From the NCBI GenBank assembly GCA_902578675.1, contig CACHDV010000014.1:1-35413 (forward strand): a stretch of 35,413 nucleotides of DNA, read 5' to 3'. The position numbers were made by a program, and so were the translations under genes. The notes below the pieces were generated by a model. That model was given only the letters and a program-made list of their open reading frames with translations. It ran no database searches and was not told where the DNA came from. The DNA is from an uncultured Alphaproteobacteria bacterium. Its GTDB lineage: Bacteria > Pseudomonadota > Alphaproteobacteria > Thalassobaculales > Thalassobaculaceae. Shown piece by piece: positions 743 through 33,347 of the stretch (position 1 is its first letter; each line of letters begins with the position of its first letter).

Positions 743-2821
743 ATGACAGTTAGTCTTGCGATAGACATTGGCGGTACTTTTACGGATGCTGTATTAGAGC
801 ATAATAAGCATCGGTTCACCGCAAAAGTACTTACGACAAAAGAAAGCCCTGAAGCAGGTTTCTTAGCCGCAGCAAAAAAAGTGTTGAGAATCAGCAACTT
901 GAAGCCTAAGGACGTAGACTTCATCATACATGGCACAACTCTAGCCACGAATGCGGTTATAGAGCGAAAAGGCGCTAAAACAGCTCTTCTTACCACTGAC
1001 GGTTTTACAGATAGTCTAGAAATTGCCTACGAGCACAGATTTGAGCAATCAGATCTTTTCATGGAGCGGCCTAAACCCCTAGTGCCTAGACACCTCAGGT
1101 TAGGCATAAAGGAACGAATTGCAGCAGACGGCTCCATTTTAATTCCTCTGGATATGCGCTCCGTCGAAGAGGCCGTTGTCAAATGTAGAGAAGAAAAAGT
1201 AGAAGCAATCGCCATCGGCTTTTTGCATTGCTATGCCAATGATGAACACGAAAAAAGTGTGAAGTCATTTATCCAAAAGACTCTCCCGGATGTACCCGTA
1301 TCAATATCTAGCCAAGTATCGCCAGAGATACGAGAATATGATCGCCTTTCCACGACCACCGCCAACGCTTACATTCTGCCGCTGATGAAAACGTACCTTG
1401 AAAACTTAGGCGCAGCCCTAGTACAACAAGGATTTTCAGCCCCACTTCTTTTGATGATGTCAAGTGGCGGTATGACGACATTAGAAACTGCCAAAACATT
1501 ACCCATAAGGCTTGTTGAGTCAGGGCCAGCTGGTGGAGCAATTTTATCACGCATTATTTCCGCCGAGTGTGGCCTACCGCAAGTATTGTCATTTGATATG
1601 GGCGGGACTACAGCCAAGATATGTTATATAGACGAATATACCCCACAACACTCTCGTGAATTTGAGGTTGCTAGAGAATATAGGTTTTTAAAAGGCAGCG
1701 GATTTCCACTTAGAATACCAGTTATTGACATGGTTGAAATTGGCGCAGGAGGTGGATCTATAGCGTCAGTAGACCAACTATCGAGAATACGCGTTGGCCC
1801 AGAAAGTGCAGGGTCGAGCCCAGGACCCGCTTCTTACAACAAAGGTGGTCACAAAGCCACCGTAACGGATGCAGACTTAATTATGGGACGCATAGACCCA
1901 AAAGACTTTGCGAACGGTGAGGTTGAACTAGAACAAGAGTTAGCCAGGCAAGCTCTTGAGGCCGACATTGCCCTCCCCTTAGACCTGTCCATCGAAACTA
2001 GCGCATCTGGAATAGCACAAATCGTGGATGAAAATATGGCTAATGCAGCCAGCGTACATGCTATAGAACTGGGAAAACGTCTTGATGATAGAGCGATGAT
2101 TGCATTTGGTGGAGCGGCACCACTCCACGCCTGTCAGCTGGCGGAAACTTTAAATATCAAAAAAATAATCATTCCTAGTGGCGCTGGTGTGGGCTCGGCA
2201 ATCGGTTTTTTAAAAGCTGATATCGCCTATGAGGTTGCGCGTAGTTATTATATGGACCTTCGGTTCTTTGACCCAGCGATAATTAATAACTTATTTGAAT
2301 CAATGAAGAGAGAAGCAGAGGATGTTGTTAAACAAGGCACAAAAACAAAACAACTAACGGAAAATAGAATTGCTTTTATGCGTTATAGAGGCCAAGGCCA
2401 CGAAATAGCTGTGCCAATCAACGATCAGCCTTTGACTTCAAATAGCAGAGAAGTACTGATGCAAACATTTGAAAGCGAATACCAAAGATTGTTTGGCCGG
2501 GTCATACCAGGTCTCACTGCAGAAATTATGACCTGGTCACTAACGTTAAGTACAAATAAACGGCTGGTAAAAAATATTTCCAAAGTTGAAAAACAAAATC
2601 AACCTGAAGCGATGGACAAAAGGAAAGTTTTTAACATTCGCCTTAACCAGTTCCAGGAAATCCCCATTTACGTGAGAGAACATTTGGTCCCAGGAGACTG
2701 GATGCCCGGCCCAAATTTAATTATCGAAAATGAAACGACGACATACGTCTCGGAAAATTTCTGCGCCTATGTAAACAATCTAAATTATTTAGAGCTAAAA
2801 CTCCAAGAGGAAAACCCATGA
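743..2821 (+). CDS. hyuA: hydantoinase/oxoprolinase subunit A (HyuA family)
   Basis: A 692-residue protein of the HyuA/oxoprolinase-A family, the ATP-dependent subunit that opens cyclic amides (hydantoins, 5-oxoproline) or carboxylates ketones in acetone-carboxylase relatives. It has the two ASKHA-fold phosphate motifs: DIGGTFTD at residues 8-15 and FDMGGTTAK near residue 290. Other family landmarks are HGTTLATNA near residue 55, VESGPAGG near 258 and GAGGGS near 335. The length matches the usual ~700 residues. The stop overlaps the start of hyuB by 4 bases (ATGA), implying translational coupling and a complex. The exact substrate is not decidable: hydantoinase, 5-oxoprolinase and related ATP-dependent enzymes share these motifs. 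Confidence 0.9.
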   Translation: MTVSLAIDIGGTFTDAVLEHNKHRFTAKVLTTKESPEAGFLAAAKKVLRISNLKPKDVDFIIHGTTLATNAVIERKGAKTALLTTDGFTDSLEIAYEHRFEQSDLFMERPKPLVPRHLRLGIKERIAADGSILIPLDMRSVEEAVVKCREEKVEAIAIGFLHCYANDEHEKSVKSFIQKTLPDVPVSISSQVSPEIREYDRLSTTTANAYILPLMKTYLENLGAALVQQGFSAPLLLMMSSGGMTTLETAKTLPIRLVESGPAGGAILSRIISAECGLPQVLSFDMGGTTAKICYIDEYTPQHSREFEVAREYRFLKGSGFPLRIPVIDMVEIGAGGGSIASVDQLSRIRVGPESAGSSPGPASYNKGGHKATVTDADLIMGRIDPKDFANGEVELEQELARQALEADIALPLDLSIETSASGIAQIVDENMANAASVHAIELGKRLDDRAMIAFGGAAPLHACQLAETLNIKKIIIPSGAGVGSAIGFLKADIAYEVARSYYMDLRFFDPAIINNLFESMKREAEDVVKQGTKTKQLTENRIAFMRYRGQGHEIAVPINDQPLTSNSREVLMQTFESEYQRLFGRVIPGLTAEIMTWSLTLSTNKRLVKNISKVEKQNQPEAMDKRKVFNIRLNQFQEIPIYVREHLVPGDWMPGPNLIIENETTTYVSENFCAYVNNLNYLELKLQEENP

Positions 2822-4470
2822 GGGAAGCTAATATTCGTTACCAAGTAATGTGGGACCGATTAACGACAATAGTAGAGGAACAAGCTAGAACTCTAATACG
2901 CACTGGCTTTAGTGTTTCAACTCGAGAAGCTGGTGACGTATCGGCGGGCGTATTCGATTTACAAGGACGCATGCTCGCCCAGGCAGTTACAGGAACTCCC
3001 GGCCATATCAATTCTATGGCAATGTCAGTTGGTCACTTTATCGAGAAATTCCCAATCAAAAAAATGAAAGAAGGCGATGTTTTCCTCACCAACGACCCTT
3101 GGAAAGGTACCGGTCATCTGCATGACATCGTCGTGGTAACACCAACTTTTAAGAACGGGCGTGTTGTCGCTCTCTTCGCCTGTACAACCCATGTCGTAGA
3201 TATTGGGGGTATTGGCATGGCGCCTGACGGAAAGCAAATATATCACGAGGGACTTTATATTCCATTAATGTATCTTTTCAAAGCCGGCCAGTTGAATGAA
3301 ACACTGATAGACTTTGTTCATTACAACTGCAGAGAATCTAAACAAGTTGAGGGGGATATCTATGCTTTAGCCAATTGCAATGACGTTGGCAGCGATCGTC
3401 TTAGAGCAATGATGGTCCAATATAAAATTGAGGACCTCAACGAGTTAGCAGAAACAATCATTGAAAGCACCCGAAATGCAATGCGAGCGGCGATAAGCAA
3501 ACTTCCAATAACCACGACAACAAACACTATGAAAATTGATGGCTATGATGAGGAAATCGTTCTCAAAGCAAAACTTAGCGTAGTAAACGACACTATCGTG
3601 ATCGATTACGAAGGGTCTTCACCAATATCAGACTTTGGAATAAATGTACCGAAATGCTACACTGATGCCTACACAAGTTTTGGTGTCAAATGTGTTGTGG
3701 CTCCGGAAGTTCCAAATAACGCGGGATCTTTGGCGCATATAATCGTCAAAGCACCCGAAGGCTGTATCCTCAACGCCCCACATCCCTGCGCAGTTGTAGC
3801 TAGATCCTCTATTGGCCATATGTTACCAGATGTCGTTTTTGGTTGTTTACATCAACTACTACCTGGTCGGGTCCCTGCAGAAGGTACTTCTTGTCTTTGG
3901 AATTTACGCCTTGGAGCTGGGCATGGAATAACGACGCGAGATCCAAATACTAAGTTAGAAAATACAACTTTTACCGCGATGAGTTTTCATAGCGGTGGTG
4001 CGGGTGCGAGACCAAATAAAGATGGCCTGTCCGCGACCCCATTCCCAAGTGGAGTAAGAAACGTTCCCGTCGAAGTGCTAGAAGCGATCACACCTATAGT
4101 AATATGGCGCAAAGAGTTGAGACAAAACTCAGGCGGCGCTGGCCAATTCCGGGGGGGACTCGGTCAAAGGATGGTCGTTGGAAATAGAGAAAAAGCAGAA
4201 TTTGCTATATTTGGCACTTTTGATCGCGTTAAAAACCCCGCACGTGGGCGAGACGGTGGAAAGCCAGGAGCAACTGGTTCCCTTACATTAACATCAGGCA
4301 AAAAATTGAAAGGAATGGGCCGACAAGTTATTCCAATGGGCGAAGAATTGATAATTGAGATGCCTGGAGGTGGGGGATACGGTAATCCGAAAAGCCGCGA
4401 CAGAAAAAAGATAATGGAAGATATAAGGGCCGGTCTAGTAAGCGCTGATAATGTAAAAGAATACGAATAA
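2818..4470 (+). CDS. hyuB: hydantoinase/oxoprolinase subunit B (HyuB family)
   Basis: A 550-residue HyuB-family subunit, the partner of HyuA. Typical landmarks are FSVSTREAGDVSAGVFD near the N-terminus, DVFLTNDPWKGTGHLHDI near residue 90, the glycine-rich GGAGQFRGGLGQ near residue 440, and the closing PGGGGYGNP. Length is normal for the family (500-600). Its ATG lies inside the last codons of hyuA, so the two are translated together. It ends 29 bases from the converging rsmB-like gene, with no convincing terminator in that gap. In bacteria, separate A and B genes are the usual arrangement; eukaryotic 5-oxoprolinase is a fusion of the two. Confidence 0.9.
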   Translation: MREANIRYQVMWDRLTTIVEEQARTLIRTGFSVSTREAGDVSAGVFDLQGRMLAQAVTGTPGHINSMAMSVGHFIEKFPIKKMKEGDVFLTNDPWKGTGHLHDIVVVTPTFKNGRVVALFACTTHVVDIGGIGMAPDGKQIYHEGLYIPLMYLFKAGQLNETLIDFVHYNCRESKQVEGDIYALANCNDVGSDRLRAMMVQYKIEDLNELAETIIESTRNAMRAAISKLPITTTTNTMKIDGYDEEIVLKAKLSVVNDTIVIDYEGSSPISDFGINVPKCYTDAYTSFGVKCVVAPEVPNNAGSLAHIIVKAPEGCILNAPHPCAVVARSSIGHMLPDVVFGCLHQLLPGRVPAEGTSCLWNLRLGAGHGITTRDPNTKLENTTFTAMSFHSGGAGARPNKDGLSATPFPSGVRNVPVEVLEAITPIVIWRKELRQNSGGAGQFRGGLGQRMVVGNREKAEFAIFGTFDRVKNPARGRDGGKPGATGSLTLTSGKKLKGMGRQVIPMGEELIIEMPGGGGYGNPKSRDRKKIMEDIRAGLVSADNVKEYE

Positions 4471-9582: not shown

Positions 9583-10878
9583 ATGGCAAGCTCTGCACAG
9601 AATAAATTGATGACGAATATTGGTCCAGGCACACCGGCTGGCAACGTCCTACGTTCCTTTTGGCAACCGGTGGCGCTGGCAGAGGAACTAAACAACGATC
9701 GTCCAGTTGCAGCCGTTCAAGTTTTTGGCGAAAGCCTTGTTCTATTCAGAGACCAAGATGGTAATCTGGGCCTCTTAGAACGAAACTGTGCCCATCGAGG
9801 TGCCGACCTTTGTTACGGCAGACTGGAAGATAACGGTATAAGGTGCCCCTTTCATGGTTGGCTTTTCAGTACGAACGGCGATTGCATGGAACAGCCAGCA
9901 GAACCCGAAGACAGCACGCTGCGCCATAGCGTTCAACAGAACGCTTATCCAGTAATCGAAAAAAATGGAATGATCTTTGCGTTCATGGGCAAAGGAGATA
10001 TACCCCCACTCCCCAACTTAGATTGTCTTATAGCGCCATCAACCCACAATTTTGCGTTCAAGGGATTCGTCGACTGTAATTGGCTGCAACTGCTAGAAGT
10101 GGGGATTGACCCAGCCCACGCTTCTTTTCTTCATCGTTTTCTTGAAGATGAGGAGGATGCAAAATACGGTCAGCAATTTAGAGATAATGTAGACAATATT
10201 CCGATGACTAAACTTCTAAGAGATTATTATCGCCCGGAGATAAGGGTCGAGAATACTGACTTTGGACATCGATTAATCGCTTTAAGAAATCTTAATAATA
10301 ACGGTATGCATGTAAGAGTTACAAATCAGATATTTCCATCAGCAATCCACATTCCACTTAGCAACGAAATGACACTCACCCAGTGGCATGTTCCAATTGA
10401 TGACTTTCGCAGCTATTGGTATGCAATGTTCACCAGTTTTGGTGACCCCGTTGATAAAGATTTAATGCGAAAGCAACGTCTAGAACTGTATGAATTACCT
10501 AACTACATTCCCAAAAAAGGGAAATGGAATAACTACGGCTATAATCCAACGGAACAAATTTCGGAAACTTACACTGGCATGGGTAGCGATATTAACGTCC
10601 ATGACCAATGGGCTGTCGAATCACAAGGCAGTATACAGGATAGAACAAAGGAGACGTTAGCTAATAGTGATGTCGCGATTAAAGCCTATCGTAAGAACCT
10701 TATCAAATCTATCCAACAGCAGGATCGCTCCGACGTAAACCTATCGCATTATGATCACAGTATTCCAAAAGCGATCGACGTCATTGCGTCACTTGATAAT
10801 TGGGAAAAAGCCTGGACGGAAGCTGAAATGAAGAGGCGCCAAAGTTGTAGTTGGAAAAGTACTATAAACCAGTTATGA
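9583..10878 (+). CDS. Rieske [2Fe-2S] oxygenase, phthalate-dioxygenase-like
   Basis: A 431-residue Rieske non-heme iron oxygenase. The Rieske cluster ligands are Cys69-x-His71 (NCAHRGADL) and Cys88-x2-His91 (RCPFHGW). The mononuclear iron site reads GIDPAHASFLH, with bridging Asp176 and ligands His179 and His184. The N-terminal layout (GPGTPAGNVLRSFWQPV) is that of the phthalate 4,5-dioxygenase/vanillate demethylase group. Such enzymes need a reductase with its own FeS centre, and none is in this window. The gene is followed after 16 bases by a glutamine-synthetase-like gene, so the two are almost certainly co-transcribed. The substrate is unknown; ring hydroxylation, O-/N-demethylation and amine oxidation are all possible. 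Confidence 0.88.
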   Translation: MASSAQNKLMTNIGPGTPAGNVLRSFWQPVALAEELNNDRPVAAVQVFGESLVLFRDQDGNLGLLERNCAHRGADLCYGRLEDNGIRCPFHGWLFSTNGDCMEQPAEPEDSTLRHSVQQNAYPVIEKNGMIFAFMGKGDIPPLPNLDCLIAPSTHNFAFKGFVDCNWLQLLEVGIDPAHASFLHRFLEDEEDAKYGQQFRDNVDNIPMTKLLRDYYRPEIRVENTDFGHRLIALRNLNNNGMHVRVTNQIFPSAIHIPLSNEMTLTQWHVPIDDFRSYWYAMFTSFGDPVDKDLMRKQRLELYELPNYIPKKGKWNNYGYNPTEQISETYTGMGSDINVHDQWAVESQGSIQDRTKETLANSDVAIKAYRKNLIKSIQQQDRSDVNLSHYDHSIPKAIDVIASLDNWEKAWTEAEMKRRQSCSWKSTINQL

Positions 10879-10894
10879 AAATATTGGAGAGAAT

Positions 10895-12361
10895 ATGCCT
10901 ACTTTGGGCGGTAGTAGTGGATTGAAAAACTTCATCAAGAAACATGGTTTGTGGGATGAAGATCAAAATAAGTCCGCAATGTCAATTCTCAAAAGAATTC
11001 AAGACCTAGGGCTAGAATCAATACGGCTTTCATTTGCGGATCAGCACGGCTTACTGCGCGGAAAATCTATTTTGGTCGCCGAATTGGAGAGCATTTTGTC
11101 TTCTGGTTGCAGCATGACGTCGACACTCCTGCTCAAAGATACGTCAAACAGAACTGTTTTCCCAATATGGGAGCAAGGCGCCGGAATGAATACGTCTCAG
11201 TTTAATGGTGCAGGCGATATGATCATGGTTCCTGATCCAAAAACCTTTAAAGTCCTTCCTTGGTCAAAAAAAACAGGCTGGTTTCTCTGTGATATTTATT
11301 TTCCAAATGGTGATCCTATTCCTTTTTCCAGCAGGCGACTATGTTCTCAAGCCGTGGATGCGCTTTCCAAGCTTGGTTACGAATATTTATCCGGCATAGA
11401 GATAGAGTTTCATATATTCAAAACTACCGATCCAAAATTAGGATTTCAGGACTCAGCAATGCCTGGTACGGCGCCAGAAGTCGCACCTTTAGCGCACGGG
11501 TTTCAATACCTATCTGAGGTAAGGTTAGATGAACTTGAACCGGCGATAGATTTAATTCGGGAAGGCGCCTTAGCTTTGGACTTGCCTCTGCGAACAGTGG
11601 AGATAGAGTTTGGCCCAAGTCAAGTTGAATTTACGTTTTCCCCACTGGTTGGCAAAGAAAGCGCAGACCTCATGCTACTTTTTAGATCTGCGACCAAGCA
11701 AATTTGTAAAAGAAGTGGTTACCATGCGAGTTTTATGTGCCGACCAGGATTACAAAATGTCTTTGCAAGTGGGTGGCATCTGCATCAATCACTGGTTAAT
11801 AGAAGCGATGGCAAAAATGCCTTTGCTTCGGATAAACAAGGCTTGCTGTTATCAGACGTTGGAAACCAGTTCGTTGCAGGAATTTTAAAAAACGCAGATG
11901 CAAGCTGTATTTTTACAACGCCTACGATAAATGGTTACAAAAGATATAAACCTGAGTCGCTAGCCCCAGACCGTATCCTCTGGGCCAAAGATAACAGAGG
12001 TGCGATGGTAAGAGTGTTAGGTTCGAGTGAAGATCAGGATTCTAGAATTGAAAATAGGGTCGGGGACCCGGGTGCAAATCCCTATTTTTATTTAATGTCA
12101 CAAATTTTATCAGGCTTAGATGGGATAGAACATAAACTCACTCCGCCTCCTGTGACAGAAACACCGTATACTACTGATGCCGATCGGTTACCACAAAGTC
12201 TAATTGAAGCGGCCGATGCGCTCGACAGAAGTTCTTTTTATAGAACAAAATTGGGCGACGAATTTGTGGAATATTTACTGAAAATAAAAAGGAATGAAAT
12301 TAACAGATTTCTATCAGAAGTTACCGATTGGGAACACAGAGAATATTTTGAGATTTTATGA
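10895..12361 (+). CDS. glutamine-synthetase-like gamma-glutamyl ligase
   Basis: A 488-residue member of the glutamine synthetase fold. Landmarks are SIRLSFADQHGLLRGKS in the beta-grasp N-terminal domain, GIEIEFHIF (metal-binding Glu) near residue 170, FGPSQVEF near 245, GWHLHQSL (ATP/metal His) near 293, and the Arg-rich RIENRVGDPGANPY near residue 387. It lacks the look of housekeeping GlnA and has no glnB/ntr genes nearby. Relatives join glutamate to amines: PuuA (putrescine), GlnA3/GlnA4 (polyamines, ethanolamine), GMAS (methylamine) and TdnQ/AtdA1 (aniline). A GGAGAG ribosome binding site sits just before the ATG. Its tight link to a Rieske oxygenase suggests an amine substrate that is glutamylated before or after oxidation; this is inference. 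Confidence 0.82.
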   Translation: MPTLGGSSGLKNFIKKHGLWDEDQNKSAMSILKRIQDLGLESIRLSFADQHGLLRGKSILVAELESILSSGCSMTSTLLLKDTSNRTVFPIWEQGAGMNTSQFNGAGDMIMVPDPKTFKVLPWSKKTGWFLCDIYFPNGDPIPFSSRRLCSQAVDALSKLGYEYLSGIEIEFHIFKTTDPKLGFQDSAMPGTAPEVAPLAHGFQYLSEVRLDELEPAIDLIREGALALDLPLRTVEIEFGPSQVEFTFSPLVGKESADLMLLFRSATKQICKRSGYHASFMCRPGLQNVFASGWHLHQSLVNRSDGKNAFASDKQGLLLSDVGNQFVAGILKNADASCIFTTPTINGYKRYKPESLAPDRILWAKDNRGAMVRVLGSSEDQDSRIENRVGDPGANPYFYLMSQILSGLDGIEHKLTPPPVTETPYTTDADRLPQSLIEAADALDRSSFYRTKLGDEFVEYLLKIKRNEINRFLSEVTDWEHREYFEIL

Positions 12362-12556
12362 AGATTATTTTATTTTCTTTTTTTGTTTCATCAAATGCCC
12401 AAAATTTAGACTTTTGATATGAACTACCATTTTTGTCATCAGATTGGAGGTTTTTCCAATCGGGATAAAAAAAATACTTCATAGACTTTTATGAACCGAT
12501 ATTTTGGTTTCTAATTTTTTTAATGGATATTTAAAAGTCGCGCGAGGTGAAGTTTA
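12362..12556. other. AT-rich spacer with hairpin before the TauD-like gene
   Basis: A 195-base AT-rich gap. It opens with a T-rich run right after the GS-like stop but no stem precedes it. An inverted repeat GATTGGA / TCCAATC lies at 12442-12448 and 12455-12461 with a 6-base gap. It is followed by A-rich, not T-rich, sequence, so it is not a standard terminator in either direction; an operator or mRNA hairpin is possible. An AGGTGA ribosome binding site for the next gene lies at about 12545-12550. Confidence 0.4.
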
Positions 12557-13477
12557 ATGAACCCTCAAATAGAAGCTATTGATGCAACTCTCGGAGCTGT
12601 AATTACGAATATTAATTTGGCGAACTTAACTGAAACTCATTGGAAGCTTATAGATACGGCTTTTAATGATTACGCCTTATTAGTTTTCCCTGACCAATAT
12701 TTATCAGCTGAAGCTCAGGTCGATTTTTCCCAACATTTCGGCGAAATCGAGATGCTCCGTGGGGCCGAGGGTGGAAAGGCTGTTCCAATAAGCAACCAAA
12801 AACCTGACGGCACTGTTCTGAAAGTTGATGAAGAAGATGACAAGCATCGTTTCATGACATTAAGAGGAAATGAGGGATGGCACATGGACAGCACTTATAT
12901 GCCTCTGGCCGCAAAGGCTGGCGTCCTATCGGCAAAAGTTGTTCCTTCAAGGGGCGGTGAAACCGAGTTCGCTGATATGCGAGCGGCATATGATGAGTTA
13001 GCTCCTTCTAAAGTTGAGAAAATTTCTAAATTATCCGCATTCCATTCACTCTACCAGAGCCAGGCAAAAAATGGCTACAAAGTAGAAACCGGGAAAGGCT
13101 ATGGGTATCACACCAAAGGAGCCCCACTCAGACCACTCATAAAGAAACATCCTGTAACGGGACGGAATGCTCTTTGTATCGGTAGGCATGCCTACAAAAT
13201 TCCAGGCATGGACGATAAAGAAGCTAACAATTTATTAGATTCACTTCTCGAGCAGGCCTGCCAGCAGCCAAGGCTTTATAAACACTCATGGTTACCAGGC
13301 GACCTTGTAATTTGGGACAATCGATGCGTGCTACATAGAGCATGTCCTTACGACGTATCCGAACCACGTGTTTTACAAGCAACGAGAATAAGCGGCGATC
13401 CAATGAGTGAATTTGCGGAAACAGGTGCCGATGATCTAGCCAGTGCCTTTGAGCCGTTGAAAGCTAATACCCTCTAG
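12557..13477 (+). CDS. TauD/TfdA-family 2-oxoglutarate-dependent dioxygenase
   Basis: A 306-residue Fe(II)/2-oxoglutarate dioxygenase of the TauD/TfdA family. The iron-binding triad is His109-x-Asp111 (GWHMDSTY) and His260 (DNRCVLHRA). Arg271, 11 residues after the distal His, is the expected 2-oxoglutarate carboxylate anchor. GGETEFADMRAAYDEL is a family-typical stretch. These enzymes hydroxylate next to a heteroatom and so release sulfite, phenols or amines from small organic acids; the substrate here is unknown. It is 195 bases after the GS-like gene on the same strand, perhaps with its own promoter, and converges on a dienelactone-hydrolase-like gene. Confidence 0.88.
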   Translation: MNPQIEAIDATLGAVITNINLANLTETHWKLIDTAFNDYALLVFPDQYLSAEAQVDFSQHFGEIEMLRGAEGGKAVPISNQKPDGTVLKVDEEDDKHRFMTLRGNEGWHMDSTYMPLAAKAGVLSAKVVPSRGGETEFADMRAAYDELAPSKVEKISKLSAFHSLYQSQAKNGYKVETGKGYGYHTKGAPLRPLIKKHPVTGRNALCIGRHAYKIPGMDDKEANNLLDSLLEQACQQPRLYKHSWLPGDLVIWDNRCVLHRACPYDVSEPRVLQATRISGDPMSEFAETGADDLASAFEPLKANTL

Positions 13478-15664: not shown

Positions 15665-16801
15665 TTAGCTTGATAACTCATTTATATGTGCGTTTAGTTG
15701 GCGATGAAAGTGCACAATTGCTTTTTCAAACCTACCAAACGTAAAATGAGTGTTACCGTCTCCCATTAAACCTCTTTGTATTGAGCAAGCGGCCTCCCGA
15801 TCTTCTTCAACACCAGTGTCTTTTACAAAAGCGGCGTCTTTTTTTGAGCGCTCAAGGTCTTCAATTGAAACTGTCGTGTTCGGCGGCGTAAGTCTATAGA
15901 CATGCCATCGAGAAGTTGAAACGGAAATCGGTTCCATTATGACCAACTGATAATGATTCGAAAGAATTGATAATCGCGCATTGGGATATATTTGTATTAC
16001 ATAGGTAAGCATCCCATCTGCCTTCCAATCATTTTTTGGGATTTCCCTTAATTTTTCAATACGTCGAAAAGGGAAAACTATTCGGGAGTTCATTCCAAAC
16101 GTCTCGACAATATTTAAATTATCGAAACCATAGGGATAAAAGGTTTTATTATGCAACGCTTTGATGTGATAGCCTTCCATGGCCGTTTCCAAAAGAATCT
16201 TCCAATTCGCTTCATCTACAAATGTTGAATAATCGAAGACTTTTTGATCCTCAGAAATGAGCGTTGGCAAACTAGCTAGCGCGCCATCAGATATGGCTTT
16301 TTTCTGGGTTACAAAGATTAGGCCGCACTTTTCCTGTGTCTCGACTTCAATAAGGCCATGGGAATTTTTATCTAAATCGGGGAAACCCTCATTCCCTGAT
16401 ACATTCAGCAAGTTACCATCTAACCCGTAGGCCCACGCATGGTAACGACAAATGAATTTTGAGGCGTTTCCGCTGCCTTCGGCTAATATCATGCCTCTAT
16501 GCCGGCAACTATTGTGGAAAGTTCTCACGACTCCGTCCTTTCCCCTAACTGCCAGCAGAGGAACACCACCAACATCTCGGGCTACATAAGAACCACTTTT
16601 AGCCAAGGCCGCAGATGGACAAAAGACAATTGGTAGTCGCTGGAATAGGTCTAACTCTGTGGAAAATCGCTCTTCGGACCGATAATTGTCTACCGATTCG
16701 CGCCATGTTTGATCACCAAGATCAGTTGTTTTATCTGAAATTTGATCAAGCACTTTTTGTATAACTTCTTTGTCGCTAAGTAATTTCGTCATATTTTTCA
16801 C
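15665..16801 (-). CDS. Rieske [2Fe-2S] oxygenase, ring-hydroxylating alpha-subunit type
   Basis: A 378-residue Rieske oxygenase of a different subgroup from the one at 9583. The cluster ligands are Cys99-x-His101 (SCRHRGM) and Cys118-x2-His121 (ICRYHAWAY). The iron site lies in ETAMEGYHIKALH, with Glu209 where many ring-hydroxylating enzymes have Asp, and ligands His212 and His217. This layout resembles the choline-monooxygenase/carnitine-oxygenase (CntA) and GbcA-type group that acts on quaternary amines, where the bridging residue is often Glu. Substrate remains unproven. The frame begins at GTG 16801, with a GGGG stretch about 10 bases upstream; an in-frame ATG at 16792 is the alternative. 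No reductase is adjacent. It is divergent from purF with 134 bases between. Confidence 0.87.
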   Translation of the reverse strand: MKNMTKLLSDKEVIQKVLDQISDKTTDLGDQTWRESVDNYRSEERFSTELDLFQRLPIVFCPSAALAKSGSYVARDVGGVPLLAVRGKDGVVRTFHNSCRHRGMILAEGSGNASKFICRYHAWAYGLDGNLLNVSGNEGFPDLDKNSHGLIEVETQEKCGLIFVTQKKAISDGALASLPTLISEDQKVFDYSTFVDEANWKILLETAMEGYHIKALHNKTFYPYGFDNLNIVETFGMNSRIVFPFRRIEKLREIPKNDWKADGMLTYVIQIYPNARLSILSNHYQLVIMEPISVSTSRWHVYRLTPPNTTVSIEDLERSKKDAAFVKDTGVEEDREAACSIQRGLMGDGNTHFTFGRFEKAIVHFHRQLNAHINELSS

Positions 16802-16935
16802 AAAAATTTTTCCCCATCATCACCAACAAACTATCTACCATGAGTTGTTATGTTACAAAAAACAAGACATGCCACTCAAGTAAGTATATAACTTCCGATG
16901 AATAAAACAGCGTTATAGGAGCTGTAAGAGATTTG

Positions 16936-27122: not shown

Positions 27123-27156
27123 ATAGTCTCGTTTTATACCCGAGGAGTAAATGAAC

Positions 27157-27864
27157 ATGGATAAATCATTAATGCTAAATCCAGCGGACTACGTAGGAGT
27201 TTCCTTCTGGATTATCTCAGCTGCAATGGTAGCTGCAACTTACTTTTTCTACGTTGAACGTGACAGAGCAATAGGTAAATGGAAGACATCACTAACAGTA
27301 GCCGCGATGGTAACAGGTATTGCTGCTATCCACTACTTCTATATGCGAGAAGTTTGGGTTGCTACAGGTGAGTCCCCGATAGTCTTTAGATATGTTGACT
27401 GGCTATTGACCGTTCCTCTGCAAATAGTCGAGTTTTATTTGATATTAGCCGCAGTCGCAGCGGTGGCTGCTGCTTTATTCTGGCGCCTCTTGATCGCTTC
27501 ACTTGTGATGCTAATCGCAGGATATTTAGGTGAAGTGGGTGGACAGGATGGGTCCGGCCTATGGATCTACTTTATCATTGGAATGGCCGGATGGTTATAT
27601 ATCCTGTACGAAATTTTTGCCGGCGAGGCGAGCAAAATAAATGCTAGCGAGGGCACCAACGCCTCGAAAACTGCATTTAACGCTCTAAAATGGATCGTAA
27701 CGGTTGGATGGGCAATTTATCCAATAGGTTACGTTTGGGGCTACGCCGGAGGTGGAGACGCAGAAGCACTAAACATTATCTACAACCTAGCTGATTTTAT
27801 TAATAAAATAGCCTTTGGTGTAGTGATTTGGGTGGCGGCAACTTCACCTGAATCAAATAAATAA
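27157..27864 (+). CDS. proteorhodopsin, blue-tuned light-driven proton pump
   Basis: A seven-helix microbial rhodopsin. With numbering from the ATG at 27151: the helix-C motif RYVDWLLTVPLQIVEF gives Asp83 (proton acceptor), Thr87 and Glu94 (proton donor), the triad of outward proton pumps. Position 105 of the reference protein is Gln91, predicting blue absorption; Leu there gives green. His61 (reference His75) is kept and the retinal-binding lysine is Lys219 in ADFINKIAFG. AGGAG at 27143-27147 lies 3 bases before the ATG at 27151 but 9 before that at 27157, so the latter is preferred (235 residues). The N-terminus is short and lacks the signal peptide found in many proteorhodopsins. Retinal is supplied by the five genes that follow. 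Confidence 0.97.
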   Translation: MDKSLMLNPADYVGVSFWIISAAMVAATYFFYVERDRAIGKWKTSLTVAAMVTGIAAIHYFYMREVWVATGESPIVFRYVDWLLTVPLQIVEFYLILAAVAAVAAALFWRLLIASLVMLIAGYLGEVGGQDGSGLWIYFIIGMAGWLYILYEIFAGEASKINASEGTNASKTAFNALKWIVTVGWAIYPIGYVWGYAGGGDAEALNIIYNLADFINKIAFGVVIWVAATSPESNK

Positions 27865-27890
27865 CCGAAATTGGTTGTGACTTAGTAAAA

Positions 27891-27920
27891 GCGGGCGATA
27901 GTTTTTACAATATCGCCCGC
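27891..27920. other. strong hairpin between proteorhodopsin and crtE
   Basis: GCGGGCGATA at 27891-27900 and TATCGCCCGC at 27911-27920 form a perfect 10-base-pair, GC-rich stem around a 10-base loop. It begins 26 bases after the opsin stop. The plus strand continues with AAAAC, so this is not a standard terminator for the operon; on the minus strand only four Ts follow. A leaky terminator, RNase block or processing site that leaves opsin mRNA in excess is likely. Confidence 0.8.
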
Positions 27921-28037
27921 AAAACTAAAGGGTTACCTGCAATTAAGAAGCAACAAAAAGCTGAACTACTCACCGCTCCCGCCCTTAAATCTGACTCGGG
28001 TCAACTAGGACTCGTAAAAGAAGAGTTAAAGACCAAA

Positions 28038-28985
28038 TTGTTAGAGGTGCTTCCCCGGGAGGGGCATCCCCTATTTAGCGTAGCGAAAACTCATTTTGCT
28101 GAGTTTGGTAAAATGCTTAGAGGGACTACTAGCCTAACCATTTCAAACGCTGTTGGTCTTGACCACGACATTGGCTTAAACTGGGCTCTCGCGGTTGAAT
28201 TAATGCATAACGCATCGCTAGTGCACGACGATGTTTGTGACGAAGATGATTTTCGTAGAGACCATCCTACCGTCTTTGCAATTCACGGAGCACCGCTCGC
28301 AATTTGTTTCGGCGATTGGCTCGTAGCGAAAAGTTTTGAGTGTGCAACGTTAGCAGCCAAGGAATGTCGCGGCGAATCACTTACCGCAATAACACTTATC
28401 GCAAAAGTGATGTCAGAGTTATCCGCTGGACAAGCCAAGGAATTTACTGGGGAACCTATTCTAGACTGGGAAAGTTACGATACTCTCGTCAGTAGCAAAA
28501 CTGTACCTTTGCTCAGTGCCGCAGTCGAAGGTCCTATTCTGCTTTCAAATAAAACAGAATACTTCGAAACCATAAGAAACTTCATCCATTCTCTCGGATT
28601 AGGCTATCAGATATCAAATGATATTTCTGATGCGCTAGGTAAAGATGGTTCAAATAAACCATTCAGTGATCTCTATCGCGGCGCACCCAACGCCGTCTCT
28701 ATAACATTTCGTGACACACTAAAAAACGGCCATAGGTTAGAATTTGAAGAATGGGTGAGGAATAAGTTCCGATTGAACCATACTAACTGGCTAACAGAGA
28801 TTAGACAGAACGGGGCGGTAGATATTTGTACACAACAATTACAACAATATATTGGTGCATGCCATCAGTATAAATCAAACCTCCCAGAAGAATTACAAAA
28901 AGCGCTGTCGCCGTTAGTATCTTATCTGGAGCAATCGGTTAAACAACAATTTTCATTAGCAAAAAATCGAAGCGAGAGTTCCTAA
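28038..28985 (+). CDS. crtE: geranylgeranyl diphosphate synthase
   Basis: A trans-isoprenyl diphosphate synthase of at least 315 residues that extends FPP to GGPP for carotenoid synthesis. The first Asp-rich motif is intact: HDDVCD with Asp64, Asp65 and Asp68. The second reads NDISD (residues 194-198), with Asn in place of the usual first Asp. The FGKMLRG region replaces the family GKRLRP. The start is uncertain: the only NTG codons near the conserved LPREGHPL are TTG 28038 and GTG 28047, but the frame stays open upstream to 27861, and the bases just before TTG encode a plausible family-type helix (VKEELKTKLLEVL). ATT 27942, with AAAGGG 9 bases ahead, is a possible non-standard start. It is the first enzyme gene of the retinal operon. 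Confidence 0.9.
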   Translation: MLEVLPREGHPLFSVAKTHFAEFGKMLRGTTSLTISNAVGLDHDIGLNWALAVELMHNASLVHDDVCDEDDFRRDHPTVFAIHGAPLAICFGDWLVAKSFECATLAAKECRGESLTAITLIAKVMSELSAGQAKEFTGEPILDWESYDTLVSSKTVPLLSAAVEGPILLSNKTEYFETIRNFIHSLGLGYQISNDISDALGKDGSNKPFSDLYRGAPNAVSITFRDTLKNGHRLEFEEWVRNKFRLNHTNWLTEIRQNGAVDICTQQLQQYIGACHQYKSNLPEELQKALSPLVSYLEQSVKQQFSLAKNRSESS

Positions 28986-28988
28986 GTT

Positions 28989-30485
28989 TTGGTAGGTAAG
29001 GAATCGATTAACACTCTTGTTGTTGGAGGAGGTTTCGGAGGTATTGCTGCTGCCCTACGCTGCAAAGCTCTAGGCCATAACGTGACGCTCGTGGAACGGC
29101 TAGATAAATTAGGTGGTAGAGCTCAAGTACTTAAAATAGACGGTTACAAGCACGATATGGGCCCAACGGTTATTACTGCGCCATTTCTATTTCAAGAACT
29201 TTTTCAGTTATTTGATGAAAACCTCGATGATCATTTGGAGTTTGTTCCCGTTTCACCGTGGTATAGATTCGTTTTTCATACCGGAAAAGAGTTTAATTAT
29301 AGCGGGGACGAGACGCAAATGGACGAGGAGATAGCAAAGTTCTCAACCTCAGATGTCAAAAATTACAAAAGATTACTGCAGGCCTCTAAGAAAATATTTG
29401 ATGTAGGCTTTTCGAAATTAGCTCATGTCCCATTTCTTACAGTTTGGTCAATGATGAAGCAAATCCCTCACTTGATTAGATTACGAGCAGATCGCACTGT
29501 GAGCCAATTTGTTAAGCATTATATTGAAAACCCACTTCTCCAAAGAGCTTTCTCAATCCACCCCCTACTCGTTGGTGGAAATCCATATACAACGACGTCT
29601 ATCTATTCGCTCATTCATTATCTTGAAAAAAAATGGGGCATTTTTTTTTGCAAGGGGGGTACCGGAGAACTTGTTGAAAAATTAACCGAATTGATGGAGC
29701 GACATGGAATAATAATCAAATATAATACAGAGGTAGAAAAGTTATCGGTCAGCGATAACAGAGTTACATGCGCTTACACCAAAACAAATGAAAAAATAAC
29801 GTTCGACAATATAATTTGCAATGCCGACCCACCTGTGGTTTACAAAAACCTCTTAAAGGTGAATCAAGAACAATCCATGGGACTTAAAAAGTGGTTTCCA
29901 TCTCGATTAACAAATTATTCCATGGGTCTATATGTATTCTTTTTTGGCACCACAATTAAATATGAAAATGTTGCACACCATACTATTTGGCTAACCGAGC
30001 GCTTCGAAGAACTTTTAAGTGACATTTTTGATCGAAAAAAGCTAACTGAAGACTTCTCTCTCTACATACATAGACCAACTGCAACCGATACAAGTTTCGC
30101 GCCTCCTAACTGTGATAGTTTTTATGTTTTGTGCCCTGTACCTAATTTACAAGCGAGCATAGACTGGGATATCGAGGGGAAGAGATTGCGTGACCGTATA
30201 GTAATGGCATTATCCAAAACTATCCTGCCAAAATTAGAAGATTACATAACAGCTGAACATTGGATGACACCTAGGGAGTTTAAAGACAACTATCTTTGCG
30301 CCTATGGAGCAGGGTTTTCTATTTCACCTAATTTGACGCAATCAGCATGGTTTAGATACCATAATGTCGACACAAAACTTGAAAATCTTTATTTTGTAGG
30401 GGCCGGCACACACCCTGGAGCGGGTCTTCCCGGTGTACTGAGCTCAGCAAAAGTCGCGGAATATTTATTAAAAACAGAGGCATGA
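28989..30485 (+). CDS. crtI: phytoene desaturase (lycopene-forming)
   Basis: A 498-residue CrtI that introduces the four double bonds turning phytoene into lycopene, membrane-associated and FAD-dependent. The dinucleotide-binding start is VVGGGFGGIAAALRCKALG with VERLDKLGGRAQV after it, and GHDMGPTVI-like DMGPTVITAPFLF follows. The C-terminal FVGAGTHPGAGLPGVLSSAK is the bacterial desaturase signature. The length is the usual ~500. It starts with TTG 3 bases after the crtE stop; no Met codon occurs before the FAD motif, so the TTG is needed. A GAGAG 10 bases upstream is a weak ribosome binding site. Confidence 0.95.
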   Translation: MVGKESINTLVVGGGFGGIAAALRCKALGHNVTLVERLDKLGGRAQVLKIDGYKHDMGPTVITAPFLFQELFQLFDENLDDHLEFVPVSPWYRFVFHTGKEFNYSGDETQMDEEIAKFSTSDVKNYKRLLQASKKIFDVGFSKLAHVPFLTVWSMMKQIPHLIRLRADRTVSQFVKHYIENPLLQRAFSIHPLLVGGNPYTTTSIYSLIHYLEKKWGIFFCKGGTGELVEKLTELMERHGIIIKYNTEVEKLSVSDNRVTCAYTKTNEKITFDNIICNADPPVVYKNLLKVNQEQSMGLKKWFPSRLTNYSMGLYVFFFGTTIKYENVAHHTIWLTERFEELLSDIFDRKKLTEDFSLYIHRPTATDTSFAPPNCDSFYVLCPVPNLQASIDWDIEGKRLRDRIVMALSKTILPKLEDYITAEHWMTPREFKDNYLCAYGAGFSISPNLTQSAWFRYHNVDTKLENLYFVGAGTHPGAGLPGVLSSAKVAEYLLKTEA

Positions 30486-30488
30486 AGA

Positions 30489-31424
30489 GTGCCAAAAGCG
30501 ACCACAGCGAAACAATATGTTAGTACCGCGAACAAGTTACTTTTTACGTATGGCAAATCGTTCCATTGGGCGCGGTATTTCTTAGGCAAAGAGGTAGGAT
30601 TACAAGCTACACAATTATATGCCTTTTGTCGATATCTCGACGATATAGCGGACCAACCCGATAATCTTGGTGCCACAAAACTCAAGTCGATCCAAAATAT
30701 TTTCAATAATTATTCCTATCAGACCGGGAGCTGTCCTGAAGTTGATAATTTTTTGTTATTAAAGCAGGAATTAGATTTGCCAGTTTTTGCGGTTAAAGAT
30801 TTGCTTGAAGGGCTTATTAGTGATCAAGGAACTGTTTTACTACTTAATGAAAATCAGTTGATACAGTATTCTTATAAAGTAGCTGGTACTGTTGGCCTAA
30901 TGATGGCTCCCATTCTTGGAATTTCTAGTACGAAGGCTATTCCATTCGCAGTAGATTTGGGAATAGCAATGCAATTAACGAATATATCTAGAGACGTATT
31001 GGAGGATGCCAAATTAGGTAGGCGCTATATACCAGGAGAATGGTGTGATGACCTGTCCGCTCCACAGATTGCTGAATTAGCTAAAAACGGCACGACCAAA
31101 GATCGGTTGAAAATCTCCGCGGCGGTAAAACGTACTCTCCTATTAGCGGAAACCTACTATATATCTGGCTTTAAGGGCTTGGCATACTTGCCACCAAGAA
31201 GTCACTTGGCCATTCTAATTGCAGGGATTATCTACAGATTAATAGGAAGACGTATTCTTAATTCCGGGACAAAATGGTGGGTAGGTCGGCAAGTTGTTAA
31301 TAATACTGGTAAATTGCTGCATTCCTTTTATCCTCCGTTACTTATGCTTAACCGCTTCAAGCGATTGCCAGTACATGAGTCACACTTACACACCCACCTT
31401 AGGGACTATTTAGATTTTGATTGA
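30489..31424 (+). CDS. crtB: phytoene synthase
   Basis: A 311-residue squalene/phytoene synthase that condenses two GGPP to phytoene. Both Asp-rich motifs are present: DDIAD at residues 51-55 (YAFCRYLDDIADQ) and DVLED at 169-173 (TNISRDVLEDAKLGRRYIP). The YGKSFHWARYF segment near residue 21 is typical. It starts with GTG 3 bases after the crtI stop, with AGAGG 8 bases before it; the ATG at 30482 is out of frame. It overlaps the presumed crtY start by 8 bases. Confidence 0.96.
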   Translation: MPKATTAKQYVSTANKLLFTYGKSFHWARYFLGKEVGLQATQLYAFCRYLDDIADQPDNLGATKLKSIQNIFNNYSYQTGSCPEVDNFLLLKQELDLPVFAVKDLLEGLISDQGTVLLLNENQLIQYSYKVAGTVGLMMAPILGISSTKAIPFAVDLGIAMQLTNISRDVLEDAKLGRRYIPGEWCDDLSAPQIAELAKNGTTKDRLKISAAVKRTLLLAETYYISGFKGLAYLPPRSHLAILIAGIIYRLIGRRILNSGTKWWVGRQVVNNTGKLLHSFYPPLLMLNRFKRLPVHESHLHTHLRDYLDFD

Positions 31425-32556
31425 AACTTCTGATGTGGAATATTTTCCAACTGCCATTGTAGGCGCAGGTTGCGCCGGATTAACACTTGCCTATGAATTA
31501 ATAAATTCAAAAGATTTCCCTTGTATCTTACTAGACCCGCAAAAATTTCGCCCAGAGCACGCATTTTCCTTTTGGGATGATGGACATCCAAACTTAACTT
31601 TAGCGAGATCTCTTGCGAGAAAAACATGGTCAAAATGGGAAATTAAAACCTTTGAGGAGACCATTCAAAAATATAGTAGTCGTTTTGTATACTCAACTGT
31701 TTCATCATCTAATTATGAAACCTATCTCTTCAAAAAAATTGCAGAAAATAGAGGTACAATATTAAATGCCAGAGTCACTGACCTCTATAACGAAGATACC
31801 TATACCCGATTAGAAACATCTTCTGGAGACGTTTTCTTGGCTAATAGGGTTTTTGATAGCAGGCCTCCATCCCCAACAAAGAAAACTATATTCCAACATT
31901 TTCTTGGATGGGAAATAAAAACCAACAAATCCGTTTTTGATGATACCCTTGTTACACTTATGGATTTTCGGGTACCTCAAGAAGATGGAATTCATTTTAT
32001 ATACGTGTTGCCATATTCCGAAACATCCGCCTTGGTTGAATCAACAGTTTATTCAGATACCGTGTTTAATCCAAAATGGTATGAAAACCAAATCACTGAA
32101 TACTTAACGAATGTAATACAGTGCAAGTCGTGGGACGTAGTTATTAAAGAAAAAGGGGCTATTCCTCTCAATTACAAGAAGGATTTAAAACCACTCGGCA
32201 CGCCTATAGGCCTCAACGCTGCTGCTATGCGAGCTTCTACAGGATACGCTTTCTCACAGATAATTCATCAAGCCATTAACGTCAGTGGACAGCTTAAACA
32301 AGGCCAAGATCTCATTCAGATAAAACCTGGAGCTACAAGCTTTGAAAATTGGATGGATAACGTATTTCTTGATGTACTATCATCCTCACCTAAGCTAGCG
32401 CCGTATGTATTTTCAACCTTGGCCAAAACTCTGAGTGGTGATGATTTCGTGAAATTTATGATTGGTGATTGCCCACTTTCGATTAAGTTAAGGATAATTT
32501 TTGCACTTCCAAAGTCTGATTTTATTCTTGGTGCACTAAGGAATGCATTTAAATGA
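31417..32556 (+). CDS. crtY: lycopene beta-cyclase
   Basis: A 379-residue CrtY-type lycopene cyclase that forms beta-carotene. The FAD/NAD-binding start is AIVGAGCAGLTLAYEL near residue 13. Family features are FSFWDDGH near residue 50 and the central FDSRPPSPTKKTIFQHFLGWEI (residues ~147-168), the FDSRP..FQ.F.GW signature of CrtY; IPLNYK and STGYAFSQII follow. The frame starts at TTG 31417 inside the end of crtB; GTG 31435 is an alternative start just before the FAD motif. Its TGA overlaps the blh ATG by 4 bases. Confidence 0.94.
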   Translation: MIETSDVEYFPTAIVGAGCAGLTLAYELINSKDFPCILLDPQKFRPEHAFSFWDDGHPNLTLARSLARKTWSKWEIKTFEETIQKYSSRFVYSTVSSSNYETYLFKKIAENRGTILNARVTDLYNEDTYTRLETSSGDVFLANRVFDSRPPSPTKKTIFQHFLGWEIKTNKSVFDDTLVTLMDFRVPQEDGIHFIYVLPYSETSALVESTVYSDTVFNPKWYENQITEYLTNVIQCKSWDVVIKEKGAIPLNYKKDLKPLGTPIGLNAAAMRASTGYAFSQIIHQAINVSGQLKQGQDLIQIKPGATSFENWMDNVFLDVLSSSPKLAPYVFSTLAKTLSGDDFVKFMIGDCPLSIKLRIIFALPKSDFILGALRNAFK

Positions 32557-33347
32557 AATGGGACCTTCTAATACCATTACTCTTTATTCTTTTTATTGGA
32601 ATTCCACATGGGGCATCAGACATTCTAATAGCAAGGCGGCGCTTCAAAAATTCATGGCTTAAGATATCGTTCTTTATAATAGGTTACGTTTTCGTCGCAA
32701 TTATCTTTACAGCCACTTGGTTTCTTTATCCTACCTTATGTTTAGCGTTATTTCTGTTCATTTCTGGATTACATTTCGGTCTGCTCGACACAATAAAAAT
32801 GCCTACTTCTTCTTTGAAATTAATCCAAGCCTTTATCTATGGCCTAACCCCAATAATTATTCCCATTGTGTTTCACACAAGAGAAGTGAATGAGATTTTT
32901 AAGTTATTATTGTTTGATGACAACAATGAAATTGCACTCCAGATAAAACACTTTTTCCTAGTTTGGCTGTTGGGACTAATAGTATTTTTCGTAAAATACC
33001 CAGAAAGTTCACAACGGCAAGTCTTAGAAATAATAGCACTCGCTAGTTTGCTTGTTACTACGCCTCCACTTTGGGGGTTTGCATTTTATTTTTGCTTTGT
33101 CCATTCCATCAGGCACTTTTTAAACCTTAGAAAAGAATTAAATAATCTGGAAAGGTTTGATGTAATTGCCTTATTTATGACCTCAGTCGCGACAATAGCG
33201 CTTGTTGCTTTAGCTGGTTTTTTATTGGAAGGAAATGGAATGGAAGAAAGCCTTCTAAAAGTAACCTTTATTGGCTTAGCAGCGCTTACAGTCCCGCATA
33301 TGTTATTGGTAGACCTTTATCCAAGGATAAGAACTACAAGCTTTTAA
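32553..33347 (+). CDS. blh: beta-carotene 15,15'-dioxygenase, Brp/Blh family
   Basis: A 264-residue integral membrane enzyme that splits beta-carotene into two retinals. The four iron-binding histidines expected in Blh are visible: His19 in GIPHGASD, His74 in SGLHFGLLD, and His184 and His188 in FVHSIRHFLN. A further conserved His249 is in TVPHMLL. Several hydrophobic helices span the protein. It starts with ATG overlapping the crtY stop (ATGA), so it is coupled to it, and is the last gene of the operon. Together with the opsin it defines a complete holo-rhodopsin module. Confidence 0.95.
   Translation: MKWDLLIPLLFILFIGIPHGASDILIARRRFKNSWLKISFFIIGYVFVAIIFTATWFLYPTLCLALFLFISGLHFGLLDTIKMPTSSLKLIQAFIYGLTPIIIPIVFHTREVNEIFKLLLFDDNNEIALQIKHFFLVWLLGLIVFFVKYPESSQRQVLEIIALASLLVTTPPLWGFAFYFCFVHSIRHFLNLRKELNNLERFDVIALFMTSVATIALVALAGFLLEGNGMEESLLKVTFIGLAALTVPHMLLVDLYPRIRTTSF

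Follow-up and report, generated by a model that had tools for sequence, protein, structure and literature searches.

The paired genes

The window analyzed here is the whole 35,413-nucleotide stretch of contig CACHDV010000014.1 (assembly GCA_902578675.1) from an uncultured alphaproteobacterium of the family Thalassobaculaceae, a host that is probably marine judging from an earlier sequence-only reading and from a rhodopsin-retinal gene cluster in the window. Two neighboring genes on the forward strand are the subject of this study. The upstream gene (9583-10878 +) encodes a 431-residue, SadA-like Rieske non-haem iron oxygenase of the phthalate/isophthalate dioxygenase type with Pfam domains Rieske and LigXa_C, referred to below as the RO. 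The downstream gene (10895-12361 +) encodes a 488-residue glutamine-synthetase-like ligase (GS), classed as a SadB-like gamma-glutamyl-(aromatic amine) synthetase from its Gln-synt_C domain, its similarity to NpaA1, and its clade in a phylogenetic tree. The spacer of 16 bases (10879-10894 +), a distance given correctly in the sequence-only reading, contains a ribosome-binding-site-like GGAGAG, read by eye, and the two genes are probably co-transcribed. The pair is interpreted as a SadAB-type glutamylation-dependent ring oxygenase for an acid-bearing aromatic amine, most likely 4-aminobenzoate, giving a catechol, a reading that is assigned a probability of about 0.55.

Conservation of the pairing

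The pairing was surveyed with three queries: the GS in GTDB contigs, the RO in 398 Pseudomonadota genomes, and a Pseudooceanicola oxygenase in 385 alphaproteobacterial genomes, the latter two sets having five genomes in common. The GTDB survey confirmed 340 places. Among the best 80 of these, which were analyzed, the RO lies directly upstream on the same strand in 77, and in the other three the contig covers fewer than 350 bases upstream of the GS start. Bradyrhizobium contributes 65 of the 80 loci, two of them from one genome, so this survey mostly reflects one lineage. The RO-alone query returned 21 matches at E values up to 1e-100. Approximately 5% of the sampled Pseudomonadota genomes (21/398, the genome of the window included) thus carry the RO, nearly always with the GS, which follows immediately downstream in 20 of the 21 (alignment gap 5 to 204 bases, median 117) and at a distance of 1.4 kb in the remaining one. 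The Pseudooceanicola oxygenase gave 29 matches, all with an intact Rieske motif, and a GS stands beside 26 of them; the three exceptions are the 1.4 kb case, one contig end, and L202, in which no GS was found within 1.5 kb downstream of the RO.

Among 61 relatives, the GS is present in 15, and the RO is adjacent in all 14 that were examined. The two genes are close yet not adjacent in L088, L091, L182, and L173. The pairing is confirmed as real and strongly conserved, beyond chance: the tight association proposed from the sequence alone recurs beside 20/21 and 26/29 RO matches, and the prospect raised with it, that the pair might not be conserved elsewhere, did not materialize. The pair represents a widespread family, and enzymes of the SadAB make are apparently already known from degraders of the dye chemical sulfanilic acid. 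An RO-GS pair also lies on a contig of 7.4 kb whose assignment is to Actinomycetota (L005, an Acidimicrobiia metagenome-assembled genome (MAG)), reflecting either transfer or a binning error.

Family and active site of the ligase

The GS matches Gln-synt_C with an E value of 7.8e-74, and its nearest solved relative is the 1-naphthylamine glutamylase NpaA1 (PDB 8wwu; 468.5 bits, 2e-139), the next structure scoring 166.7 bits. Its scores lie far below the curated NCBIfam cut-offs for GlnA (217 against 429 bits), PuuA (228 against 650), and the GMAS-type TIGR03105 (218 against 470). A tree of 64 chosen rows, with most Bradyrhizobium sequences left out, sets GlnA, PuuA, and GMAS far apart (100/99, with a long-branch warning) and places the window GS inside a clade (support 97/93) whose 48 rows are ligases that accompany this RO type; one row (L003) comes from a contig without upstream DNA, and its RO partner is not visible. 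Scores and tree together rule out a true glutamine synthetase, PuuA, or GMAS. The sister group, with weak support (80/53), comprises the nine rows of NpaA1 and its kin, namely NpaA1 and four more ligases that accompany two-subunit ROs, and four with no RO annotated near by. The phylogeny proposed in the sequence-only reading therefore separates the window GS both from true glutamine synthetases and from the clade of NpaA1 and kin, and the GS does not belong to the aniline-type gamma-glutamylanilide synthetase clade. The plasmid ligases in this comparison are presumably TdnQ, DcaQ, and AdoQ; their records say just glutamine synthetase family protein.

Most of the residues for metal, ATP, and glutamate persist in the GS, which keeps E129, E131, E212, E220, H269, R321, R339, R344, E357, and R359 (E. 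coli numbering) and differs at D50, N264, G265, E327, and Y397, the same five positions at which NpaA1 differs. The equivalents of E232 and E234, which hold the amine in NpaA1, are kept in all 48 clade ligases. The position of NpaA1 residue 75, occupied in the window by Lys81 (codon 11135-11137 +), is lysine in 48/48 clade rows and phenylalanine (eight) or valine (one) in the nine sister rows, and the position of residue 80 is arginine or lysine in 43 of the 48 clade ligases. F75 of NpaA1 lines the bottleneck of the amine tunnel (PMC11335346).

Family and active site of the oxygenase

The RO matches the Rieske (E 7.8e-21) and LigXa_C (E 6.6e-25) families, and the best solved structures by sequence are isophthalate dioxygenase (IPDO; 9ina, 7e-56) and 7fjl (8.4e-51), which we take to be phthalate dioxygenase (PDO). 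LigXa_C and these structures bear out the assignment to the phthalate type, rather than the two-subunit aniline type, made from the sequence alone. The signature of a phthalate-type Rieske non-haem oxygenase (CxH...CxxH, bridge aspartate, 2-His-1-carboxylate) is complete, with Rieske ligands C69, H71, C88, and H91, bridge D176, and iron ligands H179, H184, and D341 all present. A tree of 52 rows holds 47 ROs from pairs, four of the phthalate type that have no GS annotated in their vicinity, and one other RO of the host genome; the 47 group together (94/84), apart from the five others, with long-branch warnings. All Rieske ligands occur in 44 of the 47, the remainder being L009, which is cut by a contig end, and two split forms. 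Both trees, that of the GS and that of the RO, place the window in the same sets of two, five, and six rows, the pattern to be expected of genes that move as a unit.

In IPDO, the substrate is anchored at R234 by its C1 carboxylate, with C3 and C4 closest to the iron; the carboxylate-binding residues of PDO are R244, which corresponds to the IPDO R234 site, and R207 (PMC12445078). All 47 pair ROs have arginine at the R234 site (R245 in the window, codon 10315-10317 +), threonine at the site of IPDO L198 (PDO R207), and glutamine at the site of IPDO H257. Compared with 9ina and 7fjl, the window RO shares the family, all metal ligands, the bridge aspartate, and the anchor arginine, and differs in the second carboxylate-binding residue (Thr209, Gln267) and in having a ligase partner.

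A split oxygenase occurs on two Rhodobacterales plasmids, in L088 (Pseudooceanicola algae p111, 10352-12513 -) and L091 (Palleronia sp. LCG004, 1-2076 +). Its catalytic protein aligns with the window RO and has lost the CxH/CxxH ligands of its own Rieske domain, and it is preceded by a small, separately encoded protein whose Rieske motif is intact. Between the two genera, this small protein shares 66% identity; among the plasmid matches listed, it is otherwise closest to Rieske domains from fused ROs within the same family (up to 53%). In L088, a small protein without a Pfam match follows the split oxygenase.

Comparison with known systems

The sad operon of Hydrogenophaga PBC contains a dioxygenase gene (SadA) with a glutamine-synthetase-like gene (SadB), for 4-aminobenzenesulfonate 3,4-dioxygenase, and a figure legend labels sadC a ferredoxin (PMC5632844). 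The window matches this make-up, an oxygenase gene being paired with a GS-like gene in both, whereas no ferredoxin or reductase gene was recognized among the window open reading frames (ORFs) scanned. The different amine pathway envisaged in the sequence-only reading is thus less supported, as a dioxygenase gene with a GS-like gene is the published arrangement of the sad operon (PMC5632844): the glutamylation mechanism is well supported, and its novelty less so. The SadA protein may itself be a one-subunit phthalate-type RO, by analogy with the pair of Novosphingobium resinovorum SA1. Deletion of sadB reportedly abolished activity in E. coli, and sadC is also reported to encode the reductase and sadD the ferredoxin, in contrast to the 2017 legend. 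To our knowledge, the only studied enzyme set of the SadAB make acts on an industrial chemical.

N. resinovorum SA1 is a sulfanilic acid degrader (PMC6167471, PMC5632844). Its plasmid pSA3 carries a sad-like pair whose two proteins fall into the clades of their window counterparts and are each 52% identical to them, whereas the window pair sits in its own sub-clade with Rhodospirillaceae-type MAGs. A maleylacetate reductase gene, of a kind listed among the 4-sulfocatechol genes of SA1 (PMC5632844), lies 2 kb before the SA1 RO; FAD reductase, ferredoxin, and glutaminase genes lie at least 3.7 kb behind the GS, and no pcaG/H-like genes were found in the SA1 stretch examined around the pair. The SA1 pair itself presumably attacks sulfanilate.

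The ligases of the AtdA, Tdn, and Npa systems for aniline and 1-naphthylamine belong to the same super-clade as the window GS and share the amine-site E232/E234. All five systems of this type that were compared have two-subunit ROs and an amidotransferase-type gene, and four of the five also have an annotated reductase, the exception being Npa, for which a reductase named NpaA5 is described (PMC11335346). The window differs in its one-subunit phthalate-type RO and in the lysine that replaces phenylalanine or valine in the ligase tunnel. Among the 20 window ORFs included in the Pfam scan, which are part of all window ORFs, no oxygenase reductase, ferredoxin, RO beta subunit, or amidase/amidase-type amidotransferase was recognized; the gene at 16933 for a class-II amidotransferase was identified as purF (498 bits against a cut-off of 350). 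A two-subunit system of the aniline type (AtdA/Tdn) was rejected on the grounds that no beta subunit, amidase-type amidotransferase, or reductase was recognized near the pair among these ORFs and that the ligase falls in another clade. The glutamylated intermediate is the substrate of the oxygenase for aniline (PMC4539516) and for 1-naphthylamine (PMC11335346). The amidotransferase of the aniline route returns the amide to aniline and prevents its build-up (PMC4539516), a reversal that makes the absence of such a gene by the window pair no argument against glutamylation.

Gene neighborhoods and the host genome

Neighbors were counted in 65 Bradyrhizobium loci and 43 others, the window included; the loci differ in length, so that the counts are minima, and among the 43, L006 and L136 have identical sequence and L171 looks like Bradyrhizobium. 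The 43 loci contain genes for ferredoxin in 11, reductase in seven, Peptidase_C26/amidotransferase in three, pcaGH in one, PnbB in two, IclR in 13, and GntR in six. The 65 Bradyrhizobium loci contain none for ferredoxin, reductase, Peptidase_C26/amidotransferase, pcaGH, or PnbB, with IclR in 58 and BoxC in 13. Electron-partner genes are therefore not a constant feature of pair loci. The lack of an adjacent reductase or amidase, pointed out in the sequence-only reading, stands in so far as none was recognized, but it does not make the window special (ferredoxin in 0/65 Bradyrhizobium loci and 11/43 others).

The RO, GS, ferredoxin, and FAD reductase genes stand in a row in Caballeronia, Cupriavidus, and Polaromonas, and a gene for a gamma-glutamyl hydrolase or an amidotransferase lies no more than ~6 kb away. 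Palleronia has pcaBDGHC genes 0.7 kb behind the GS on the opposite strand. Nitroreductase and PnbB-family genes occur close to the pair in Caballeronia and Methylobacterium nodulans, and a nitroreductase gene in Cupriavidus; the Caballeronia PnbB-family protein matches PF16155, 4-hydroxylaminobenzoate lyase. PnbB is found in seven of 398 genomes, four of which are among the 21 RO genomes (expected 0.37, p 2e-4, uncorrected for kinship and genome size; the PnbB and RO surveys were two 398-genome draws with the same handles as far as shown). In three genomes of the same family as the host (L132, L133, and L134), the pair adjoins a block of genes for SDR, Amidohydro_2, NMO, and a weakly FAA-hydrolase-like protein. 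The block, which in L132 also includes a DSBA-like gene, is possibly a ring-breakdown set.

The host assembly is 62% complete at 1.67 Mb. It encodes the beta and alpha subunits of protocatechuate 3,4-dioxygenase (pcaHG), both above curated cut-offs, and has five Peptidase_C26 matches (best 227 bits) and three Fer2 matches, one of which is a weak ISC ferredoxin match (78 bits, cut-off 132) and the others in frames of 921 and 180 amino acids.

A protein of approximately 113 amino acids with weak similarity to CHMI (tautomerase-like) is encoded just behind the GS in four clusters (L084 9569-9910, L088 9368-9706, L091 9433-9786, and L170 6042-6380) and further off in a fifth (L176 3377-3718). It scores above the Pfam cut-off in L088 and below it in L170.

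Proposed reaction and substrate

Glutamylation before Rieske attack, as put forward in the sequence-only reading, is the best account of the pair, with NpaA1 as the closest structure and PuuA, GMAS, and GlnA scores far below cut-off; glutamylation-dependent oxygenation of some aromatic amine is considered likely. In the proposed reaction, the GS would use ATP and glutamate to convert an aromatic amine with an acidic group into its gamma-glutamyl amide. The amine would most likely be 4-aminobenzoate, with 3-aminobenzoate or 4-aminobenzenesulfonate as possible substitutes. Bound at its acid group by Arg245 of the RO, the amide would present its meta and para carbons to the iron, and the RO would dioxygenate the nitrogen-bearing carbon and its neighbor. 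The unstable amino-diol would then collapse to a catechol with release of the nitrogen, probably as glutamine. With an aminobenzoate, the catechol would be protocatechuate, which the protocatechuate 3,4-dioxygenase of the host could open. The electron donors would be a ferredoxin and a reductase whose genes lie elsewhere.

An acidic substrate is somewhat favored by the residues of the two proteins, since an acid group on the ring, located para or meta relative to the amine, would be compatible with both the RO arginine and the GS lysine. The neighbors in a few other genomes and the protocatechuate 3,4-dioxygenase of the host point to conversion of 4- (or 3-) aminobenzoate to protocatechuate, and aminobenzoate is tentatively named as the natural substrate. 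Such a conversion of 4-aminobenzoate to protocatechuate would parallel that of 4-aminobenzenesulfonate to 4-sulfocatechol. As a tentative extension, the window pair could then be a marine offshoot of an aminobenzoate pathway that is natural and widespread. Gamma-glutamyl capping would be followed by a one-subunit RO giving protocatechuate, the acid group would be read twice, by the tunnel lysine of the GS and the pocket arginine of the RO, and the sulfanilate enzymes of polluted sites would be recruits from this pathway. Should an aminobenzoate prove to be the natural substrate, it would become possible to test a step in p-aminobenzoate turnover and the origin of sulfanilate degradation. A literature search found no report of bacterial 4-aminobenzoate degradation via a Rieske oxygenase to protocatechuate, in a coverage without most subscription journals that leaves absence unproven. 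A homarine pathway was also considered, and a single literature search on it found nothing relevant.

Several observations weigh against the preferred reading of the pair. The anchor arginine is also present in all four compared phthalate-type ROs without a GS; it is therefore shared with the wider family and is no marker of the pair ROs. The pocket alignment is partly weak, with a PDO gap at the R207/L198 column and an unalignable IPDO I294 site, and only five of the nine sister rows used in the lysine comparison sit with two-subunit ROs. The Nitratireductor pair (L182), whose genes are not adjacent, is placed differently in the GS and RO trees, a disagreement indicating that partners were exchanged at least once. 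The likeness to Hydrogenophaga SadA/SadB is one of gene arrangement, by published description. No electron partner was recognized near the window pair, and PnbB was not found in the incomplete host genome. Near the pair, pcaGH occurs in 1/43 and PnbB in 2/43 loci, and neither occurs in the 65 Bradyrhizobium loci, in which boxC (13/65) appears instead. Dioxygenase_C is present in 15/15 GS-bearing relatives and 23/46 others; within the same family the figures are 13/13 and 18/23, which is not significant (p 0.14), so that co-occurrence with intradiol dioxygenases is significant overall and lost within the family.

The natural amine of the same kind of glutamylation-dependent oxygenase could instead be non-acidic or larger and yield another catechol. 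NpaA1 accepts several anilines and naphthylamines (PMC11335346), the three genomes of the same family have the SDR/Amidohydro_2/FAA-hydrolase-like/NMO block by the pair and not pca, and the Bradyrhizobium neighbors differ again; however, the GS lysine and RO arginine, invariant in the rows compared, fit an acidic ring as far as the alignments go, and such an amine is regarded as unlikely. An improbable variant has the pair detoxify or salvage p-aminobenzoate or p-aminobenzoyl-glutamate from folate turnover, a source of p-aminobenzoate, instead of serving for feeding. 4-Aminobenzoate, a natural compound, resembles 4-aminobenzenesulfonate, and the authors of the 2017 Hydrogenophaga study anticipate that the natural substrate is structurally similar (PMC5632844); nothing in the present data separates salvage from catabolism. 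The proposal of a GS acting on a non-aromatic amine (methylamine, polyamine, or ethanolamine), its place behind the RO being a matter of operon convenience, draws on the fact that such GS-like ligases are common in the lineage, with GMAS-family members above the curated cut-off in 7/21 relatives. This is very improbable: the GS clade is separate from GMAS and PuuA, the scores fall far under the PuuA, GMAS, and GlnA cut-offs, and an RO without a GS, unexplained by a contig end or the 1.4 kb gap, was met just once in two surveys (L202).

Other genes of the window

The pair is flanked in the window by an SBF transporter gene and a TauD-like ORF (12557-13477 +; Pfam TauD, E 4.7e-51). The latter does follow the pair, as the sequence-only reading had it, but lies outside the conserved unit: the window and a same-genus relative (L001/L131) are the only cases of a TauD gene directly behind the pair and on its strand, and TauD-like genes lie 2-4 kb from the pair in L014 and L055 (34% identical, opposite strand). 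A HyuA-HyuB hydantoinase/oxoprolinase gene pair is found at 743-4470 +, and such genes recur close to the RO-GS pair in L131-L134 and L088. A role for them was set aside because, with nine HyuA copies in the 1.67 Mb of the host genome, the chance that one falls within 9 kb is ~9%.

A second RO gene of another type (Ring_hydroxyl_A) is located near the pair at 15665-16801 -, its best NCBIfam match being glycine betaine monooxygenase (109 against 670 bits). The rhodopsin-retinal cluster (27151-33347 +) consists of genes for rhodopsin, followed by polyprenyl synthetase, an amino-oxidase-family (phytoene-desaturase-like) protein, phytoene synthase, lycopene cyclase, and beta-carotene dioxygenase.

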